Origin: Gemmatimonadota bacterium
GTDB taxonomy: Bacteria; Gemmatimonadota; Gemmatimonadetes; Gemmatimonadales; Gemmatimonadaceae
Reading direction: 5' to 3'
Assembly (NCBI GenBank): GCA_026387935.1
Contig: JAPLKU010000021.1
Coordinates: forward strand, 62,001-126,000
DNA: 64,000 bases
In this document: positions 40,861 through 52,585 of the stretch, one piece after another
Numbering within the stretch: the first letter of the stretch is position 1
How the letters are laid out: every line of letters starts with the position of its first letter
The notes under the pieces: model-generated
Databases searched by the model: none
What the model was told of the DNA's origin: nothing
Seen by the model: the letters and a program-made list of their open reading frames with translations, nothing else
Program-made: the position numbers and the translations under genes

Positions 40861-42387
40861 TCAGCCGCGCGCGACGCGAAGGACTTCGTCGACCGTGGTC
40901 ACCCCCTGCCGAACCAGGCGGATGCCGTCATCGAACAGGGTGCGCATCCCCTTGGCGATCGCCTGCTGCCGCAGTTCCTCGGAGCCACGGCGTTGCTGCA
41001 CTTCCTGGCGGAGTTCGGCGTCCATGACGAGCAACTCGTAGATGCCGGTGCGGCCGCGGTAGCCGGTGTCGCGGCACTCGGCGCACCCGGCACCCTTCCA
41101 GACTTGTTCAATCCCGAGCGCCTTGAGGTCGAGATGCTTGGCGGCGGTCTTGCTGGGCGCCGTTTCCACCCGGCAGTGCGGGCAGATGCGGCGCACGAGG
41201 CGCTGCGCCAGCACCGCGTCCACCGTGCTGGCGACGAGATAGGCGGCGACACCAAGGTCGAGCAGTCGCGTGAGCGCCGTCGGCGCGTCGTTGGTGTGCA
41301 ACGTCGAGAGTACGAGGTGACCCGTCAGCGCGGCCTGCGTGGCGATCTGGGCCGTTTCCGCGTCGCGGATTTCGCCGACGAGAATCACATCGGGGTCCTG
41401 GCGCAGCATCGCGCGCAGCGTATTCGCGAACGTGACCCCGACCTTTTCATTCACCGGCACCTGCGGAACGCCGGCGAGTTCGTACTCGACCGGATCTTCG
41501 ACCGTGAGAATCTTTTCCCGGCCGGTCTTGAGCAGCTCGACCGCCGCGTAGAGCGTCGTGGACTTGCCCGAGCCCGTTGGGCCCGTGCTCAACACAATGC
41601 CGTGTGGACGCGAAATGACATCCTTAAAGAGCTCCAAGGTGTCGGCCGCCATGCCAAGCCCGGTGAGCGAAATGCTGCCGGCCTGCTTGTCGAGCAAGCG
41701 CAGCACCACGCTCTCGCCTCGAAGGGTCGGGACCGTGGAGACGCGCACGTCCACCTGGCGATCCTGCAACCGCAAACGAATGCGGCCGTCCTGCGGCATG
41801 CGCCGTTCGGCGATATCGAGCTCGGCCATGATCTTGATGCGGCTCACGATCGCGGCCGCCAGGTGCGGCGGCGGCGACGGCGCAGCCTGCAGCACACCGT
41901 CCACGCGGTATCGGACGCGCAGCTCATGTTGGTAACCCTCGAGATGCACGTCAGACGCGCGCGCGTCGAGCGCCTCGATGAGCAGCAGGTTCACGAGGCG
42001 CACCACCGGCGCTTCGTTGGCGAGGTGCAGCAGATCGTCGAGTGGAATCTCGTCGTCGTTGCCGTTCGCCCGCTCGCCGGCCAAACCGGCAATCACGCCC
42101 TCGGCCGTCACTTCATCCTGCGCGTACACGCGCCGGATCGCGCTGCGGACATCGTGTTCGGTGTGCGACTCCACCTGCACCGACGCGCCGAACATCAGGG
42201 CAAGATCGTCGAGCGCGAGCGGATCGACCGCGTCGAGCCAAGTCCCCACGCGCAAGGCGTTTCCCGTTAACTGCAACGGGAGCACGCCATGCTGCTCGAG
42301 CCAATCGGCTGACAGCGCCCGTGACAGGCGCTGCACGCCGGCGAGCTCGGTCAGCTCGTCGAGACGGGCGGCGTCACTCGTGGCCAC
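40861..42387 (-). CDS. gspE: Type II secretion ATPase GspE
   Basis: GTG start overlaps gspD stop; LSTGPTGSGKSTTLYAAVELL, RQDPDVILVGEIRDAETAQIA, CPHC...CAEC zinc motif. Confidence 0.95.
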   Translation of the reverse strand: MATSDAARLDELTELAGVQRLSRALSADWLEQHGVLPLQLTGNALRVGTWLDAVDPLALDDLALMFGASVQVESHTEHDVRSAIRRVYAQDEVTAEGVIAGLAGERANGNDDEIPLDDLLHLANEAPVVRLVNLLLIEALDARASDVHLEGYQHELRVRYRVDGVLQAAPSPPPHLAAAIVSRIKIMAELDIAERRMPQDGRIRLRLQDRQVDVRVSTVPTLRGESVVLRLLDKQAGSISLTGLGMAADTLELFKDVISRPHGIVLSTGPTGSGKSTTLYAAVELLKTGREKILTVEDPVEYELAGVPQVPVNEKVGVTFANTLRAMLRQDPDVILVGEIRDAETAQIATQAALTGHLVLSTLHTNDAPTALTRLLDLGVAAYLVASTVDAVLAQRLVRRICPHCRVETAPSKTAAKHLDLKALGIEQVWKGAGCAECRDTGYRGRTGIYELLVMDAELRQEVQQRRGSEELRQQAIAKGMRTLFDDGIRLVRQGVTTVDEVLRVARG

Positions 42388-42388
42388 G

Positions 42389-44239
42389 CTACTTCGCCGC
42401 TCCGGGCGGACGGCGGCGCAACGTGTCGGCTGGCGAGCGCTTGAGCGAATCCTCAGGCGTGATGCGCGGCTTGAGCGGCATCTCCTTGAGGAGTTCCGTG
42501 CTGCCTTCAAGCGAGTTGCGGAAGCGCTCGATGTCCTCATCCGACGAAATGATGTGCGGCGTCAGGAAGAGGAACAATTCGTTCGTCGTCGTCGTCTTGG
42601 TCGTGTTGCCGAAGAGGTACTGGCCGATGAACGGAATCTTTGAGAGAATCGGCACGCCCGACGTCGACTTGGTCTGGTTGTTGCCGGCAAGACCGCCAAT
42701 CACCGTCGTCTGTCCGTCGCGAAGGAAGATTTGCGTCGTAGCCTGCCGTTTGGAGATGACCGGCGCGCTGAACTGAATTTCGTTCGTCGCGGCGTCGTTG
42801 GTCTGGTCCACGGCCATATTCACATAGCCGTCGGCGTTGATCGTTGGCGTAATCGTGAGCGTCGTGCCCACCGGGATGTACTGGATCGTCTGCACCGTTG
42901 TCGGCACCGTACCGGTCGTCACGCTCTGGTTCACCTGAACGAACGGCCGCTGCTCGCCAACGTTGAGCACCGCCTGCTTGTTGTTCTGCGCGATGATCAC
43001 CGGCATCGAGAGGACCTTCACATCACCACGCGACTGCAGCGCGTTGAGCGCCGCGGCATAGTTGATAGAGCCGTTGCCGCTCGTGAGTTTGAAAATGAAA
43101 TCGCGCGCGCTCGGATTCCCCGCCAGGAAGCCGACGGTGTCGCGGGCATCGGCCGTCGCGCCCTTCTTCGTCGCGGCGCCACCCAAGCCGACATTGAGGT
43201 CGGTCGATCGTGACACTTCCGCGATCGTGACCTCGATGAGCACCTGCAGCGGGCGCAGGTCGATACCGGTCATCAGACCCTGAATCAGCTGGAAGTCGGG
43301 CAGCGTCGACCGAATGAGCAGCGAGTTGGTTGCCTCGTCAGCAACGATTCGGATCTGCGCCGAAGCGTTCGACAGCGTTCCAACGCCGCCCTGAACACCG
43401 AGGGCGTTGCCAATGAGCCCTTGCACGAGTGCATTCTGGGCCCCGCGTCCGCCACCACCGAAACCACCCAGTGCGGCAGCGGCTCCGCCCCCCCCACCGC
43501 CGCCAGCGCCTCCACCGCCACGTCCACCGCCGCCACCGCCGCCGCCACCGGCCGCACCGCCGCCCGCAGCCCCACCGGCGGCGCCGCCAGCAGCGCCGCC
43601 GCGGCCACCACCAGCGCCGCCGGGTGCTGTGAAGTTCAGCCCGCCACCCTGTGCACCAAACGCGTTGCCATTCTGCACGCCGAGCAGGTTCATCAGCACC
43701 GGGGCCACGGTCACGGCGCTCGCGTGCTTCAGCCGATAGGTGTACAGCTTGAGTTCAACCGCCGCCTGCTGCTGTTGCTGCACCGCCGCCTGCGCGCGCT
43801 GCTGAGCCGTCTGCTGCGCCGCTGGGGCGGCACTCGGATCGCCCTCGAGCCGGATCAGCGCACCTTGCGTGGTGAACTTCACCCCGCTCGCTTCGGAGAG
43901 CCCGCGAATCATCGCGACCAGCGTATCGTGCGTGAATCCACGCGCCATGCGCACGGTCACCCGCTGCGACGGAATGTTGGTCATCGTGACGTTCAGGTTT
44001 CCCGCCTCCGACAGCGCACTGAGCACCACCTGAAGTTCCTGATTCTGAAAGTCGAGCGCGAAGGCACCCTGCTGCTTGATGGTGTCCACCTTGACGGCGC
44101 CGACTGCCGGCTTGGCCGGTGGTCGCGCCGGCGGAGCACTGCGCTGCGCCACCAGTAGCGATGCCAGTGGCGATGGCAACGCCGGTGCAAGGAGCGCCAT
44201 AGCGATGGGCGCGATGAGGAACAGACGGAAGGACTTCAT
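42389..44239 (-). CDS. gspD: Type II secretion secretin GspD with very Gly-rich insert
   Basis: N domains plus secretin domain: VPTTVQTIQYIPVGTTLTITPTINADGYVNM, TQIFLRDGQTTVIGGLAGN, VPILSKIPFIGQYLFG. Confidence 0.95.
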   Translation of the reverse strand: MKSFRLFLIAPIAMALLAPALPSPLASLLVAQRSAPPARPPAKPAVGAVKVDTIKQQGAFALDFQNQELQVVLSALSEAGNLNVTMTNIPSQRVTVRMARGFTHDTLVAMIRGLSEASGVKFTTQGALIRLEGDPSAAPAAQQTAQQRAQAAVQQQQQAAVELKLYTYRLKHASAVTVAPVLMNLLGVQNGNAFGAQGGGLNFTAPGGAGGGRGGAAGGAAGGAAGGGAAGGGGGGGGGRGGGGAGGGGGGGAAAALGGFGGGGRGAQNALVQGLIGNALGVQGGVGTLSNASAQIRIVADEATNSLLIRSTLPDFQLIQGLMTGIDLRPLQVLIEVTIAEVSRSTDLNVGLGGAATKKGATADARDTVGFLAGNPSARDFIFKLTSGNGSINYAAALNALQSRGDVKVLSMPVIIAQNNKQAVLNVGEQRPFVQVNQSVTTGTVPTTVQTIQYIPVGTTLTITPTINADGYVNMAVDQTNDAATNEIQFSAPVISKRQATTQIFLRDGQTTVIGGLAGNNQTKSTSGVPILSKIPFIGQYLFGNTTKTTTTNELFLFLTPHIISSDEDIERFRNSLEGSTELLKEMPLKPRITPEDSLKRSPADTLRRRPPGAAK

Positions 44240-44247
44240 GGGATCAC

Positions 44248-44760
44248 TCAGGGTACTGGTTTGCTTGCGTCAACCGAAAACCGCTCTCCATCTGCCGCTC
44301 GGAACGCGACCCGTCCGCGTTCGATCGAAACGACGACAAACTCTCCAACCTTCGAGCCGACCCGCACGATCGTGGACTGGCCGCCGGGGAGCTGCGCGGT
44401 GCCAAAGCTTTCGCCATTGAGCGAGATCGCTGTGCCAAGCACCACCGGACGCGCAGCGGGTTGCCGCGCAACCGCAACGGCTTCACCTGGCAGCCGGTAC
44501 CGTTTCGCCGGCGCTTGGCGATCGTCGGCAAATACATCGTGTGCCACCGCCGCGGCGAGATCGGCCGCCGGCGTGGCCGCCGGAAACCGCAACGCCGAAT
44601 CCGGAATCGACACTGATGGTGGTGCGGCCTCCACGCCCTGCACCCGCACCGCACCAACCATGGTGGCGACCAGCACCACCACGGCAGCGGCCGTCACGCC
44701 CGCTGCGGCGCGGAAGAATCGGTCGCGCATCATCTCGCGGTTCAGCATGGAGGCGCTCAT
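44248..44760 (-). CDS. GspC-like T2SS inner-membrane/periplasmic protein
   Basis: One N-terminal TM, PVVLGTAISLNGESFGTAQLPGGQSTIVRVGSKVGEFVVVSIERGRV; position between gspD and gspM-like gene. Confidence 0.65.
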   Translation of the reverse strand: MSASMLNREMMRDRFFRAAAGVTAAAVVVLVATMVGAVRVQGVEAAPPSVSIPDSALRFPAATPAADLAAAVAHDVFADDRQAPAKRYRLPGEAVAVARQPAARPVVLGTAISLNGESFGTAQLPGGQSTIVRVGSKVGEFVVVSIERGRVAFRAADGERFSVDASKPVP

Positions 44761-45434
44761 GGTCCGCGCTTCCCGCCGGTTGACGGCAACACGGGTAACG
44801 CCGGCTTCGGCGCGACGGCCGCGACCGGCATCGGCAGTGCGTAGCCGACAACGGTCGCGCTGACCGAGAGTGTTTCCCGATCGTCCTCGCCTGCGCGCAA
44901 CGTTTTCGCCACATCGAGCCGCTCGATCACGACGATCTTGTCGCCGCGCTCAATCGCGTCGAGAAAATCGAGCACGCCCTGAAAATCCGATTCCGCACGA
45001 AGCTCGACGCGCAGGGGACGCAGTCCATCCGTATTTGCCGTGGGGGCGACGGGTGCGCGCCCAACGAGATTCGACGGCGCGGCGCGCGTAGCCGCGCTGG
45101 CAAGCCAGACATGGCTCTTCCGTGCGACTTCTCCGAGATACGTCACGAGGGTCGCGCCAGCAGCCACGTCGTTCGGTCCCACAAAGACGCGCCCGGCGGC
45201 GACGGCCACCGCCGAGTCGGCGATCTGCTTGCGTTCCGGGTTTCGCTTGGCGCCGTTAATCGCCGATTGCTCACGCGCAAACGCGTCACGCTCGGAGACG
45301 ATCCGCTCATTGAGGTCGGCGAGCGAAGCGCGCATCGGCCGCGCCACCCAGATCCAACCGAACGACGGGACCAGCACGGCGAGCGCAAGCAGCAGGGCGC
45401 GACGGTCACGCGCATTCAGCGTTGGCATCTTCAT
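44757..45434 (-). CDS. GspM/PilO-like T2SS assembly protein
   Basis: N-terminal TM (RALLLALAVLVPSFGWIW), coiled coil, PilO-like ferredoxin fold region; operon position. Confidence 0.65.
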   Translation of the reverse strand: MKMPTLNARDRRALLLALAVLVPSFGWIWVARPMRASLADLNERIVSERDAFAREQSAINGAKRNPERKQIADSAVAVAAGRVFVGPNDVAAGATLVTYLGEVARKSHVWLASAATRAAPSNLVGRAPVAPTANTDGLRPLRVELRAESDFQGVLDFLDAIERGDKIVVIERLDVAKTLRAGEDDRETLSVSATVVGYALPMPVAAVAPKPALPVLPSTGGKRGP

Positions 45435-46801
45435 CGCTTGGCCCCGGCCAGCACCGCGCCGAGCGAAAAGTGCTCGAGCGGCTCTTCCCCTTCGACGGCT
45501 TCGCGGCGCACCGGCGCTGTGGCCCGCACCGATGCCACTCCGGGAATGCGCGCGACCGCGTCAAACACCGGCGCCGCACGAATCGCGACGCCATCAATAA
45601 ACACCGAATCGCCGCGGGCGCGAACGGCCGTGAGCGACGCGTCAATCGGCAGATACGCCGCAAGATCGGCCAGCACCGCCGACCATCGCCGGGCTGATCG
45701 CGACGTGCCAGCGAGCGACGCCACCTGACGGTACGCGGCATCCACGGACGAACGGCCGACGAGCGTCGCTTCCACCTGCGTCCGCACGCCGGCACGCGAC
45801 GTCTGGACATGCGCCAGTTCGCGTTTTACTCCCATGTAGTGGACGACGGCAGCCAGAAGCAGCGTCGCCGCTGCTGCGCCAAGTGCCCACCACGCGTTGC
45901 GCTTCACCCTGGCGCGGTCACGCTCCACCGACGCATCACTCCGGAACTCGAGCCCGTCCGCGTCGCCGGCAAACCGCGCGGCCAGCGCATCAGGGTGCTC
46001 GGCGAGCGTGGTCCATTTCGGTTCCGGCGAGAGCACGCGCAGCCCGGCGGCCGTCAGCGCGTTGATCATATCATGCGCAGCGGCGTTCGGTCCAGCCACT
46101 CCCACACGCGCCGAACCGCGGTCGCCGCCGTCGGCGATGAGTTTCGCCATCTGCACCGCATCGCCGGCACCCCGAAAGCGCCGTACCCCATCCAACCGGC
46201 CATGCGAAAGCGTCAGCAGATCGGCGCGACCATCGCGCGCAATGACGAAATACCCCGCGCCGCGCGCAAACACCGGCCACAGCGCCACCGCAGCTGCCGC
46301 CCACGCCGATTCCGCCGGGACAACTGAACGCAGTTCGCATCCCGCAGCGATTGATGCCGCGTGCACGGCCTGCGTCAGCAACTGGGCCGCTGACGACGCA
46401 AGCGTCGCGCTTGGGGCTGACGGCGCACTGCCGTTCTTCCCGGCGCCAGTCGCCGTACTGGTCACCACCTGCGCACCGCGTGCCGCCACGAAGTAGCGGC
46501 CGGCGTTTCGCGCGAGAAAACGATTGCGGTCGTCTTCCGAAAGCGGCGGAAGCGCAATTGCGCGTGTCTCGGCGAGCGGCGGCATCAACACAATCACCAA
46601 CTCCGGCTTCTCCATTCCCGACGCGCGCGCGGCGTCTGCGAACGCCGTACCCAGCAGTTCACGCGACCCGTTGGCCCCATCATTCAGCGCCAACTCCCGC
46701 TGCCACACAGTCGCCACGGCAGCCGAGGCCGCCGTCACCGATAGCGGGGTCAGCGAAATCCCCAGCACGCCCGCCGACGATGACTTGTGACTCATCGCCA
46801 T
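45431..46801 (-). CDS. GspL/PilM-PilN-like T2SS protein
   Basis: Actin-like N-terminal half, TM (AWWALGAAAATLLLAAVVHYMG) and PilN-like C-terminus; operon position. Confidence 0.65.
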   Translation of the reverse strand: MAMSHKSSSAGVLGISLTPLSVTAASAAVATVWQRELALNDGANGSRELLGTAFADAARASGMEKPELVIVLMPPLAETRAIALPPLSEDDRNRFLARNAGRYFVAARGAQVVTSTATGAGKNGSAPSAPSATLASSAAQLLTQAVHAASIAAGCELRSVVPAESAWAAAAVALWPVFARGAGYFVIARDGRADLLTLSHGRLDGVRRFRGAGDAVQMAKLIADGGDRGSARVGVAGPNAAAHDMINALTAAGLRVLSPEPKWTTLAEHPDALAARFAGDADGLEFRSDASVERDRARVKRNAWWALGAAAATLLLAAVVHYMGVKRELAHVQTSRAGVRTQVEATLVGRSSVDAAYRQVASLAGTSRSARRWSAVLADLAAYLPIDASLTAVRARGDSVFIDGVAIRAAPVFDAVARIPGVASVRATAPVRREAVEGEEPLEHFSLGAVLAGAKR

Positions 46802-47781
46802 TCCTCCGCAGCCACACCGGCCGCTGGAGCGCCATTTACCTGGCTCCGCTGGACGAGTACGCGCAACCGCACCGGCTTCGCCGATGGACTCGCGTAGGCC
46901 ATCAGCGTGACTTCGATCTGCGTCGTGAGCACGCCAGCCCGCGCCGAAATCGCCTGCTGTGCCTGCTGACTTTGCGCGGTCTGTGCGTTCTGCACGCCGC
47001 GCCCGGCGCCGGCGCGCGGTTGCGGCATCACGTCCGCGACGCTCGCGATGCGTCCACCGCGCGCACGCGTCGCCTGAATTCGCGCAATGATTTCGTCAGT
47101 CATGTTCGGCAGCACACGCAACACCGGAACCGGCGCGGTGTTGAGATTGACCTGTGCGCTCCCCAGCGTCGTGAGATACGGGCTGACGGCGGCATAGATG
47201 TCCTGCGTCATCCCCTTCACGTCTAGGAGCTCCTCGAGGTCACGAAAGTTCTGGTTGGTCGGCAACCGCAGGAGCTTTGCCTTGAGGTAATCATCGCGCT
47301 CACCGCCGCGTGCACGCGCGATGTCGTCCGGGTCCCGCCAGTCCATGATGGCCTGGGCGAGCTGATCTGCCACCACGAAGTCGTTAAGCACATTGGAGAA
47401 CAGCGTACGGAACTCAGACTCCGAAAGCGTGTTGACGTTAAGCCGGGTGCCGAGGTCAACCGCGCGGATATCCACGCGCATGCTGTCCACGAGCATGGAG
47501 CCGGAGTAACTCGAGTCGACGCCCAGCCATGGGTCGGCCGCGCGCGCGCTGCCAATTGCACCGGCGGTGGACGTGGGCCCGGCCCGGAGCGCAGCCTCGA
47601 GTCGTGCGCGGGTCGTGGCAAACGCCCCAAGCGCCCCGGCCGACGCGTGCGCCCGATCGGCGGCCGCGATGCCCACCTGCCGGCGCTCACGGCCGACCAA
47701 CGAGAACTCTACCGCCACCACGGTAATGCCAACAACGAGCCAGAGCGCAGCCAGCATGGCAACGCCACGACGGTTCCTCAT
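46792..47781 (-). CDS. gspK: Type II secretion minor pseudopilin GspK
   Basis: RNRRGVAMLAALWLVVGITVVAVEFS; MDWRDPDD, ELLDVKGMTQDIYAAVSPYLTT, VNLNTAPVPVLRVLP. Confidence 0.88.
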   Translation of the reverse strand: MRNRRGVAMLAALWLVVGITVVAVEFSLVGRERRQVGIAAADRAHASAGALGAFATTRARLEAALRAGPTSTAGAIGSARAADPWLGVDSSYSGSMLVDSMRVDIRAVDLGTRLNVNTLSESEFRTLFSNVLNDFVVADQLAQAIMDWRDPDDIARARGGERDDYLKAKLLRLPTNQNFRDLEELLDVKGMTQDIYAAVSPYLTTLGSAQVNLNTAPVPVLRVLPNMTDEIIARIQATRARGGRIASVADVMPQPRAGAGRGVQNAQTAQSQQAQQAISARAGVLTTQIEVTLMAYASPSAKPVRLRVLVQRSQVNGAPAAGVAAEEWR

Positions 47782-48470
47782 GGCGTCACCTCACCGAACA
47801 CCACCGTCAGTGGCAGCGTCAGCAAACGTGGTAACACAAATCCGTCGGCCGGAATCATCGTGATCCGGAGCGCGATCGGCGTGCCGGTCGCTGCTTCCGT
47901 GCTCGGAATCCACCGGCTCGTGCGCTGGTCATAGAACTCCACGGTCAGATCGCCGATCGTGCTATCGAGTTCACGGCGCATCAGCGGCGTCTGCGTACTC
48001 GCCTGGTACTCAATGGTCAGCCCGCGCTCCGGCGTGTTGTCGTCGGTGTCCACGAAGATCCGGATCCGCACATTCGACGTCATCAGCGGATTGGGCGCGC
48101 TGGTGACAATCGTCAGTTCGTTGCCGGTTGAAGCGGCCGCGGTGACTCCAGCGGTGGACGCGCTCCCGGCCCGCGACCCGAGCGCGACCGTTGCGACCTG
48201 CGCACCTGCCCGAGCGCCGCGCGGCACCCCGCCCTGCTGAATCTGCGGCTCGCCTTGCAGGATCCACTGCCGCAGCATCTCGCGCATCGACGCGGCGCGC
48301 TCCACCTCGGCCGATGCGTAGCGAATCGTTTGCTGACGATCGATGATCGTTCCGAACGCCACCGAACCACCGGTGACCATCATCGCGAGAATCGTGATCG
48401 CGATGACGAGTTCAATCAACGTCATGCCACTGCGGGTACCGCTCCGGGTGCTTCCGCGAGCGCGGGTCAT
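47778..48470 (-). CDS. GspJ-like pseudopilin
   Basis: Prepilin motif SGMTLIELVIAITILAMMVTGGSVAF. Confidence 0.8.
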   Translation of the reverse strand: MTRARGSTRSGTRSGMTLIELVIAITILAMMVTGGSVAFGTIIDRQQTIRYASAEVERAASMREMLRQWILQGEPQIQQGGVPRGARAGAQVATVALGSRAGSASTAGVTAAASTGNELTIVTSAPNPLMTSNVRIRIFVDTDDNTPERGLTIEYQASTQTPLMRRELDSTIGDLTVEFYDQRTSRWIPSTEAATGTPIALRITMIPADGFVLPRLLTLPLTVVFGEVTP

Positions 48471-48919
48471 TCGTCAGACCCGCCGCGCCCGCCGCCGCCG
48501 CGCGCATTCCCCGTCGTGATGACTGGACTTCGGTAGACGTAACTCTTGAGCTCGAACACGTCGTCCTTCGCCCAGAGCACACGCACCGTCACCGCATACA
48601 CGCCGGGCTGCGTCGACATCGGACTGGACTCCGTCTGCCACGAATACTCATGCAGCGGCTCCGCAAACTTGCCGCTCTTCACGGTGTCCGGCAGCGCGCG
48701 CAGCGCCGTTTCATTCAAGAAGTCGAGCCAGTCGAGCCGTGTTTGCGCCAGCGCTGCCGACTCCACTGCGCGGCGCGCCTTTTCTGCCGTTCGCATCTCC
48801 GTGCCCACGGTCTCGAGTGCCGCAATCGCGACCATCCCGACGATGGCCATCGCGGCCACCGCCTCGAACAACGACACGCCGCGCCGGCGACGAAAACGGG
48901 GCCTACCGCGCTTCGGCAC
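48467..48919 (-). CDS. GspI-like pseudopilin
   Basis: RRGVSLFEAVAAMAIVGMVAIAALE prepilin motif. Confidence 0.8.
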   Translation of the reverse strand: MPKRGRPRFRRRRGVSLFEAVAAMAIVGMVAIAALETVGTEMRTAEKARRAVESAALAQTRLDWLDFLNETALRALPDTVKSGKFAEPLHEYSWQTESSPMSTQPGVYAVTVRVLWAKDDVFELKSYVYRSPVITTGNARGGGGRGGSDE

Positions 48920-49349
48920 GCGCCACCCCCGTCCACGGGTCCACCTTCACCATCTGTGTTCCACCCGGACCGCGCACCGCCACGGAATCCGCGAACGACG
49001 CACCACTCGGCTGGAAGAGGAACTGCAACCGATCGAGGTCGCTCACAAAAACGGTCGCGCCACCGAGATCTATATGGCCTGCCGCATAGGTGCCCATGCC
49101 GTGCACGCCTGTCGTGTCCACTCGAAATGCCCCACTCGTCGGATCGAGCCGCACCGCGACAATCGCACTCGCGAACACCGCTTCACCACGCGCCGTGCGC
49201 AGCAGATCCAGCAAGGGCTCGGCGTCGCCGCGCGGTCTGGTCAAGCCAAAGTTGCCGATCGCCGGGGCAGCGAGCAGCAGCGAGATCGCGAGAACGGCGA
49301 GGACCAGGGCCATTTCCCAGAGGGTGAACCCGCGGCGCACGGCGCGCAT
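48903..49349 (-). CDS. GspH-like pseudopilin
   Basis: RRGFTLWEMALVLAVLAISLLLAAPAIG prepilin motif. Confidence 0.8.
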   Translation of the reverse strand: MRAVRRGFTLWEMALVLAVLAISLLLAAPAIGNFGLTRPRGDAEPLLDLLRTARGEAVFASAIVAVRLDPTSGAFRVDTTGVHGMGTYAAGHIDLGGATVFVSDLDRLQFLFQPSGASFADSVAVRGPGGTQMVKVDPWTGVARAEAR

Positions 49350-50548
49350 TACCGGAACGATCCGGCATTGATGCCGTAGATCGCCTGGAGCAGCGACAGC
49401 GCGACAAACGCGACGATCGCGCCGAACACCACGATCATCACCGGTTCGGCGAGCGCGGCCACGCGCTGCGTTGCGCGCTCTGTCCGCTCCTCGAAAATGT
49501 CGGCGGCCTTGAGGAGAAAGGTGCGCATGTCGCCTGCCTCTTCACCGACGCCGATCAGCTGGCCCAGCAGCGGCGAGAAGAGCGTGCTTTCACCAACCGC
49601 CGCCCGCATCGAACTCCCCTCGCGCACAAGCCCGCGCACGCGCGCGACTTCATCCTTCGCAATCGGATCGCCGATGCTCTCGATCGTGTCGTCGAGTGCT
49701 GGCAGCAGCGGCGCACCGCCGGCGAGCAGCACGCCGAGGAGCCGCGCGAAGCGCGCGGAGATGGCGTACTGGCGCAGCGTACGCACCACCGGCAGCGCCA
49801 GGAGAAACGACGCCCAAGCGCGCCGGCCGTCTTCGGTGTTCTTCACCCAGGCGAAGAGCGCCGCCCCGATAAAGGGCAGGAGCGCGAGCACGGGCCAGCC
49901 GCGACGAATCGCGCCCGTGAACGCGAGCAGCGCGCGCGTGGTGGCCGGGAGTGTCGCGCCGCTCCCCTCCAGCAACGTGACAAAACGCGGCAGCACGAAG
50001 AAGATCAGCACGGTCACGGCAATGCACCCGGCCGCAGCCAGGAGCAACGGATAGATCGCCGCGGAAATGATGCGACCGTTGAGCTGCTCCTCACGTTCGA
50101 GCTGCTCGGCGAGGCGCGCAAACGCCGTGTCGAGGTCGCTGCTGCGCTCACCCGCGCGCACGATGCCGGCATAGAGCGGATCGAAGAGGCGACGGTGTTC
50201 GGCGAGCGCGTCGGCAAGTGGCACGCCACGCTCCACACGCGAGCGAACATCGCGCACGGCGTCGGCTACGTCGCCGGTGACGACGCCGGTTGCCGCATCG
50301 AGGGCGCGCGCCAGCGGCATACCCACCGGCAGCAGCGCGGACATGGCACGCGTAAACTCGAGTACTTCGCGCTTTCGGCCCGGACGCCACCAGCTTGTGC
50401 CTGACGACGCATCCGACTCGGCCACCTGCAGCACGAGCAGACCGCGGGCCTCAAGCGACTTGGTCAGCGCGCCGGCGCTTTCCGCACTACCGTGCCCGCG
50501 CTGGCGACGGCCAGCGTCATCGACGGTTTCGTACGCGAACGTGGGCAT
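49349..50548 (-). CDS. gspF: Type II secretion inner-membrane protein GspF
   Basis: PTFAYETVDDAGRRQRGHGSAESA; paired TM blocks; GEEAGDMRTFLLKAADIFEE. Confidence 0.93.
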   Translation of the reverse strand: MPTFAYETVDDAGRRQRGHGSAESAGALTKSLEARGLLVLQVAESDASSGTSWWRPGRKREVLEFTRAMSALLPVGMPLARALDAATGVVTGDVADAVRDVRSRVERGVPLADALAEHRRLFDPLYAGIVRAGERSSDLDTAFARLAEQLEREEQLNGRIISAAIYPLLLAAAGCIAVTVLIFFVLPRFVTLLEGSGATLPATTRALLAFTGAIRRGWPVLALLPFIGAALFAWVKNTEDGRRAWASFLLALPVVRTLRQYAISARFARLLGVLLAGGAPLLPALDDTIESIGDPIAKDEVARVRGLVREGSSMRAAVGESTLFSPLLGQLIGVGEEAGDMRTFLLKAADIFEERTERATQRVAALAEPVMIVVFGAIVAFVALSLLQAIYGINAGSFR

Positions 50549-50566: not shown

Positions 50567-51016
50567 CTACTTCCAGCTCAGAACGTCGGCGTTTTCACCT
50601 TCGCCACCGAGCGCACCATCCGCTCCGTACGAAAAGAGGTCAAAGCCGGTCGGGTTGACTTCGCCCGGCGAGATGAAGAGATACTGACGCCCCCACGGAT
50701 CGGCCGGCACCGCCTTTCGGAGATACGGTCCGCGCCAGTTGGCGGGCGGATCGATCGTCGGCAGCTGCTGGAGAGCCGCGAGGCCCTGCTGCGTGGTTGG
50801 GTACGCACCCGTGTCGAGGCGGTAGGCATCCAGCGCCGAGGCCAGCATCTCGATCTGCGTCTTGGCCGTCGTGGCTTTTGCCGTGCCGACGTTCTGGAAC
50901 ACGTTCGGCGCGACAAGCGTAGCGAGAATGGCGATCACCACGATCACGACCAGGATTTCGATCAGGGTGAACCCGCCCTTCTGGCGACGTCTGAGCTTCA
51001 GGGTCTGTTCGGTCAT
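50567..51016 (-). CDS. gspG: Major pseudopilin GspG
   Basis: ATG at 51016 (MTEQTLKLRRRQKGGFTLIEILVVIVVIAILATLVAPNVF), DTGAYPTTQQGLAAL, YLFISPGEVNPTGFDLFSYGADG. Confidence 0.95.
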   Translation of the reverse strand: MTEQTLKLRRRQKGGFTLIEILVVIVVIAILATLVAPNVFQNVGTAKATTAKTQIEMLASALDAYRLDTGAYPTTQQGLAALQQLPTIDPPANWRGPYLRKAVPADPWGRQYLFISPGEVNPTGFDLFSYGADGALGGEGENADVLSWK

Positions 51017-51054
51017 GGGTGTCGTGAGCAAGAGGGCTGGTGGCTTTGACACGT

Positions 51055-51094
51055 CCGCCCGGGAAGGCGTTTCTCCCCCCCCCCCCCCGGGCGG
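51055..51094 (-). promoter_or_regulatory. Hairpin with C14/G14 homopolymer upstream of gspG
   Basis: CCGCCCGGG (51055-51063) and CCCGGGCGG (51086-51094) perfect inverted repeat; C x14 at 51075-51088. Confidence 0.6.
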
Positions 51095-51155
51095 TACCCG
51101 CCTGCCATTACAGGACAGACGTAACTGTACAGGTAGACGTTAAGTCGTTCTACCC

Positions 51156-52532
51156 TTATTTGGAGCGCTTGACCTCAGCCGTCGGGACGTCCGAATCGAG
51201 GTACGCCCGAATCCGGCCAGCCGCCTCGCCGATGGGCACCTTGATCTGCTGCATGTCGTCGCGGAACCGGATCGTCACGACGTCGCTCGCCATCGTTTCG
51301 TGGTCGATCGTAATCCCGAACGGCGTACCGGCCTCGTCCTGCCGACGATAGCGCCGACCAATCGCGCCCGCATCATCGTAGAACACGTTGAAATGCTTTC
51401 GCAGGCTGGCCTCGAGTGCATGCGCCTTCTCCGGCATGCCATCCTTCTTCGTCAGCGGGAACACGCCCACGGTGATCGGCGCCAGCGTCGGATGAAGACC
51501 CAGCACCGTACGGCCTTCTTCTTCACCTGGCACCGTTTCCTCTCGGTACGCATTCACGAGCACCGCGAGTGTCACACGGTCTGCGCCAACCGACGTCTCG
51601 ATGACATACGGGAGGTACTTCTTGTTGGCGACCTGGTCGATGTATTCGAGACGCTTGCCCGACGCCTCCTGGTGCTGCTTCAGGTCGAAATCGGAGCGAT
51701 TGTGCACGCCCTCGATTTCCTGAAAACCGAGCGTGCCACCAAAATCGAATTCGATGTCGTACGCCGCGCGCGCGTAGTGCGCGAGTTCCTTCTCGTCATG
51801 CTGATGGAACTGCAGGCGGTCGTCCGACAGACCGAGCCCGATGTGCCACTCGCGGCGGGCCGCCTTCCACTTCTCGAACCACTCCATGTCCGTGCCGGGC
51901 TCAACGAAAAACTGCATCTCCATCTGCTCGAACTCGCGCGTGCGGAACGTGAAGTTGCCGGGCGTGATCTCATTGCGGAACGCCTTGCCGATCTGCGCGA
52001 TGCCGAACGGCACTTTCTGGCGCGTCGCCTGCTGGACGTTGAGAAAATTCACGAAAATGCCCTGCGCCGTTTCCGGGCGCAGGTACACGACGCTCGCCGA
52101 ATCCTCGACGGGCCCCATGAATGTCTTGAACATCAGGTTGAACTGACGTGGCTCGGTGAGTTCACAATCCGCGTGCTCACCCGGGTGCTTCGACGGCTTT
52201 CGCGGGCAAGGCGCGTCGTTGAGCTTGTCGGCGCGGAAACGCGCCTTGCAGGTCTTGCAGTCAATCATCGGGTCGCTGAATCCGGCTACATGACCGCTCG
52301 CCTCCCACACCTTGGGATGCATCAGGATCGCCGCGTCGAGGCCTTCGACATCGTCGCGCTGGCGCACCATCGAATTCCACCAGCGCGCCTTGACGTTGTT
52401 CTTCAGCTCCACGCCAAGCGGCCCGTAATCCCAAACGGACCCCGTGCCCCCATAGACCTCGGAGGACTGGAAAATGAACCCGCGGCGTTTGGCCAGCGAA
52501 ACAAGCTTTTCGAGAACGTCAGGATATGCCAT
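51156..52532 (-). CDS. glyS: Glycyl-tRNA synthetase (alpha2 class; start may be 52568)
   Basis: [60 protein letters not shown]. Confidence 0.96.
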
Positions 52533-52585
52533 GAGGGCAATTTCGCTCTCGGGAGAGGGGCTGTCCACGGTACCGAGTGCCTCGG

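Follow-up and report, generated by a model that had tools for sequence, protein, structure and literature searches.

A fourteen-base C/G tract beside a putative ECF-type promoter of the type II secretion operon in a Gemmatimonadaceae genome

Does a run of fourteen C residues between glyS and the type II secretion system (T2SS) genes of a Gemmatimonadaceae bacterium act as a phase-variation switch, or is it a homopolymer that grew beside a promoter with little consequence for the operon? The question arises in a window of 64,000 nucleotides, the whole stretch of DNA that was analyzed, which lies within contig C22 (236,909 bases) of a 28-contig, 2.8-Mb draft genome (G000). It was raised by an earlier note that read the tract as a possible switch, seated in a hairpin loop upstream of the T2SS genes. 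The arrangement it described was confirmed, with fourteen C at 51075-51088 in the assembly, glyS and gspG on either side, and the gsp run as noted. The distance of ~60-70 nt that it gave between the tract and the start of gspG was also borne out, the measured interval being 59-72 nt from the ATG at 51016 on the minus strand. The closest named relatives of the encoded GspG are from Gemmatimonadaceae and other Gemmatimonadota drafts. From glyS through the secretion genes, the features are as follows.

51156-52568, minus strand: glyS, class II aminoacyl-tRNA synthetase (tRNA-synt_2b and HGTP_anticodon domains), the same-strand upstream neighbor of gspG
51118-51143, minus strand: upstream element TTAACGT-N15-CGTC, which precedes gspG in 8 members of the genus and is unique in G000
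51086-51094, no strand assigned: right arm of a 9-bp inverted repeat, CCCGGGCGG, sharing three bases with the tract
51075-51088, no strand assigned: the C14 run, which reads as G14 on the strand of gspG and exceeds the corresponding slot of five congeners by ~8 nt
51068-51072, minus strand: AAACG, the -35-like block of the putative gspG promoter, proposed from conservation and enrichment, with 2 nt between it and the tract upstream
51055-51063, no strand assigned: left arm of the repeat, CCGCCCGGG, located in the spacer between the -35-like and -10-like blocks
51045-51053, minus strand: -10-like block CGTGTCAAA of the putative gspG promoter, 28 nt before the gspG ATG
50567-51016, minus strand: gspG, which encodes the major pseudopilin and opens the T2SS run (T2SSG, Pfam E 3e-39; N_methyl)
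40861-50548, minus strand: remaining T2SS run, comprising gspF, pseudopilins, gspK, a gspL-like gene, gspM, one unclear gene, gspD and gspE

Chance does not account for the tract, which is exceptional in the window: the other long C/G runs there fall off steeply, to a single run of 8 and four runs of 6. Extrapolation from the conditional frequency P(C|CCC) = 0.17 gives about 2e-4 expected C/G runs of at least 14 per genome, so that composition alone is rejected as its source, and C14 is much longer than chance would allow, as would be looked for in a contingency locus. Slippage produces such long-run tails in many genomes. Counting G000, the genus is represented by 18 genomes, and 17 of them have C/G runs of at least 10; G000 itself has four internal tracts of this kind, with lengths of 10, 12, 10 and 14. 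The C12 (C18:77914-77925; L003:1501-1512) lies inside a 92-codon ORF for a predicted small membrane protein without a Pfam match, where it encodes four in-frame prolines; since a one-base slip there shifts the frame, it is a better classic phase-variation candidate than the gspG tract. A G10 (C17:70845-70854; L002:1501-1510) precedes by ~70 nt the start of a gene for a CytoC_RC-like multihaem protein that lies on the opposite strand, the same geometry as that of the gspG tract, and an intergenic C10 (C20:147665-147674; L006:1501-1510) sits in the loop between the arms, CTAGC and GCTAG, of a short inverted repeat and is thus another hairpin-loop tract in this genome. In a congener, a C10 is followed directly by a G10, making a perfect palindrome (G016:C18:97961-97980) that may be an assembly artefact. 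Within the window, the second longest run, a C8 at 43488-43495, falls within gspD, the secretin gene, around codon 248, where the protein is rich in glycine.

The glyS-gspG junction is found in five congeners (G001, G003, G004, G005 and G010) of the 18-genome genus, in which each species is represented by one genome. Aligning the six junctions with MAFFT, we found that the large length difference falls at the tract (the alignment displaces G004 by two columns). The slot bounded by GCCC and the -35-like block measures 16 nt in G000 as against 8, 8, 8, 8 and 6 nt in the five congeners; it holds a G6 in G010 and no run of at least 6 in the other four. Judging from these alignments, the gain of ~8 G is specific to the G000 lineage, or to its assembly. 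Further upstream, the distance from TTAACGT to GTGTC is 91 nt in G000 and ranges from 82 to 98 nt among the congeners, a variation of 16 nt, which indicates that the natural spacing is loose. The pattern TTAACGT-N14/15-CGTC was rejected as a general second promoter, its count across the family being no higher than that of the control; it was therefore treated as specific to gspG. Thus, it may be a gspG-specific site, perhaps one for a regulator or a second promoter.

On the downstream side, the tract ends 2 nt before a conserved element, AAACG-N14-CGTGTCAAA, that resembles promoters of ECF sigma factors. Promoters of ECF (group 4) sigma factors share with it an AAC block, a spacer of ~15 nt and a GTC-containing block, whereas the motif described here is known from conservation and enrichment. 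The motif was first chosen by eye from the gspG alignment as [AC]AAC with [CG]GTGTC[AC]AA after a gap of 15 nt, and in this form it has 7 matches in the 18 genomes of the genus, compared with 3 for the reversed pattern. All seven sit 7-67 nt upstream of an ORF start; four of them are gspG itself, the source of the motif, which leaves only three as independent. With the G after AAC fixed, MAACG-N14-SGTGTCMAA gave 59 matches in 179 genomes of the family, compared with 15 for the reversed pattern, and 21 of the 31 loci inspected have an ORF ATG within 120 nt downstream. Leaving out the four gspG cases, this holds for 17 of 27 loci against a background of 16% (p about 5e-8), with ORFs of at least 100 codons counted, random positions in the same loci as background, and loci that come partly from related genomes and so are not fully independent. 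Four patterns were searched in total, the longest being the most specific, and a shorter form without the final MAA stood only about twofold above its control. The motif thus pairs two conserved blocks a fixed distance apart and recurs ahead of genes, as is looked for in an ECF-type promoter. Counting against it as the gspG promoter is the closest congener, G003, in which the -35 block is degraded to GTAGC and the motif match is absent. A sigma-70 promoter was rejected, as there was no match in the region. Also rejected was an in-frame extension of gspG from a GTG at 51052, which is open here; the matching GTG in G010 is separated from the ATG by 46 nt and is not in frame with it (distance and frame counted by hand). 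We infer that the conserved motif is a working gspG promoter, read by an ECF-type sigma factor. In several Gemmatimonadaceae the same motif lies ahead of genes that encode exported proteins and MacB-like ABC permeases (L143, L146, L148, L184, L195, L203 and L205), which hints at a shared regulon.

The position of this putative promoter bears on what a change in tract length could do. With the tract ending 2 nt upstream of the predicted -35 block, slippage would keep the -35/-10 spacing and move only the upstream flank, and with the core promoter placed downstream of the tract, the hairpin would fall outside the main gspG transcript; the tract is probably outside the gspG 5'UTR. It is noncoding and upstream of the -35-like block, and not in a reading frame or between core elements, where a contingency tract would be looked for. 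Of the idea that the tract exerts spacing- or structure-dependent control from the 5' region, what stands is that it adjoins a likely promoter; it lies outside the predicted core, and the hairpin would be outside the main transcript. The earlier note had also named, as grounds against a switch, a gspG promoter mapped downstream of the tract together with expression unaffected by tract length, and our findings go half of the way, in that a promoter predicted from sequence is placed there.

It can also be asked whether the inverted repeat is the functional part, as an RNA hairpin serving as a glyS terminator or a T2SS leader attenuator, with the tract as merely its loop. The repeat reported around the tract is indeed perfect over 9 bp and partly uses the tract, the right arm including its final three C and the loop being 22 nt, but it is commonplace, with 26 perfect 9-bp inverted repeats with loops of 3-40 nt in the window. 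A strong stem is predicted for the gspG leader, yet its folding is no better than that of shuffled sequence (z -0.88); together with the number of like repeats, this means that the hairpin by itself is not beyond chance. By eye, the arms are kept in four of the six junctions (G000, G001, G004 and G010), with one base pair altered on both sides in G004, and are broken in G003 and G005, six sequences giving such a comparison little power. A glyS intrinsic terminator was rejected for want of a T run, as no terminator-like site (G+C-rich stem plus T run) occurs in 50950-51250. A 5'UTR hairpin or riboswitch was likewise rejected, on the broken arms in two congeners, the shuffle-level folding and the lack of any Rfam match in the leader up to E 5. 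As the repeat also lies mostly upstream of the predicted gspG promoter, a functional RNA hairpin is very unlikely. A sequencing or assembly error, with the real tract shorter or longer, is unlikely too. In its favor, contig C24 of the same assembly ends in a G48 and contig C25 begins with a C15, as signal loss at read ends would produce; the tract is missing from all congeners, and Illumina homopolymer indels increase for tracts longer than 14 (PMC8808543). In two-color sequencing, signal loss is called as G up to the read end (PMC13218037), whereas the present tract is internal to a 237-kb contig and has homologous sequence on both sides, and a G6 occupies this position in G010. The likeliest reading is thus that the tract is real and its exact length uncertain, the figure of fourteen resting on one assembly. 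Poly-G runs at or near contig ends, of 48 (end of C24; L012/L151), 15 (start of C25; L150) and, in a congener, 32 (end of G003:C3; L153), suggest artefacts of sequencing or assembly, or else long tracts that were left unassembled.

The remaining alternative is a phase-variable locus, in which the tract would set the distance or helical phase between a regulator site and the core promoter and so produce high and low T2SS expression in subpopulations. The length of G14, far above chance, and the presence of a conserved upstream element agree with this, and the tract lies inside the zone of 21-80 nt from the start that has been rated likeliest to overlap a promoter (PMC1891110). The nearest precedent is the C-stretch of fim2 and fim3 (PMC1891110, PMC10172299), where, as here, a long C/G homopolymer of comparable size occupies the promoter region of a gene for a surface structure; in the Bordetella pertussis fim3 promoter, which is controlled by its poly-C, 14 C permit expression and 13 C abolish it (PMC10172299). 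Unlike the gspG tract, which is outside the predicted core promoter and known from one assembly, the fim tract is inside the promoter, alters the effective activator or -35/-10 spacing, and is proven to be variable. Geometrically, the better parallel is Bordetella bhuR, where a tract lies five bases upstream of the -35 box, although it is an A/T tract of 8 at a mapped promoter, as opposed to G14 at a predicted one, and it showed no polymorphism in the strains that were examined (PMC1891110). The loose TTAACGT-GTGTC spacing among the congeners makes a switch of the fim3 kind unlikely, and the tract is neither conserved nor inside the -35/-10 interval. A phase-variable locus is therefore improbable, and we would put quite low the probability that G14 is a contingency switch of the T2SS operon of this uncultured Gemmatimonadota species, one that would shift an upstream regulator site rather than the core spacing of the ECF-like promoter. 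An on/off switch like that of Bordetella fim is not supported, and neutrality or weak tuning is likelier. As for the proposed phase-variation switch, slippage remains plausible, since a real tract, far longer than chance would give, is found near a likely promoter; against the proposal are the short or absent tract in five congeners and its position outside the predicted -35/-10 spacer.

The reading that we prefer, with a probability of about 0.6, is that of a lineage-specific slippage expansion beside an ECF-like T2SS promoter, with nil or mild effect on the operon. It can be hypothesized that, in one lineage, slippage added ~8 bases to what had been a short G-rich slot immediately before the -35 block, while the T2SS operon would be driven from its own ECF-like promoter just downstream. 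Changes in tract length would leave the core spacing intact, and their effect on the operon would be nil, or a mild tuning via upstream contacts, rather than that of an on/off switch. As a lineage-specific homopolymer beside a promoter, G14 looks mostly ordinary.

We know of no phase-variable T2SS operon in a free-living Gemmatimonadota. A narrow literature search on Gemmatimonadetes, type II secretion and phase variation found no case, and the matches listed for T2SS and homopolymer phase variation, judged by title, concern other organisms or systems, a weak negative. If the tract does vary and alter expression, a free-living Gemmatimonadota would have its T2SS operon controlled by phase variation. 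The more useful by-product of the analysis is a candidate promoter motif for the Gemmatimonadaceae.
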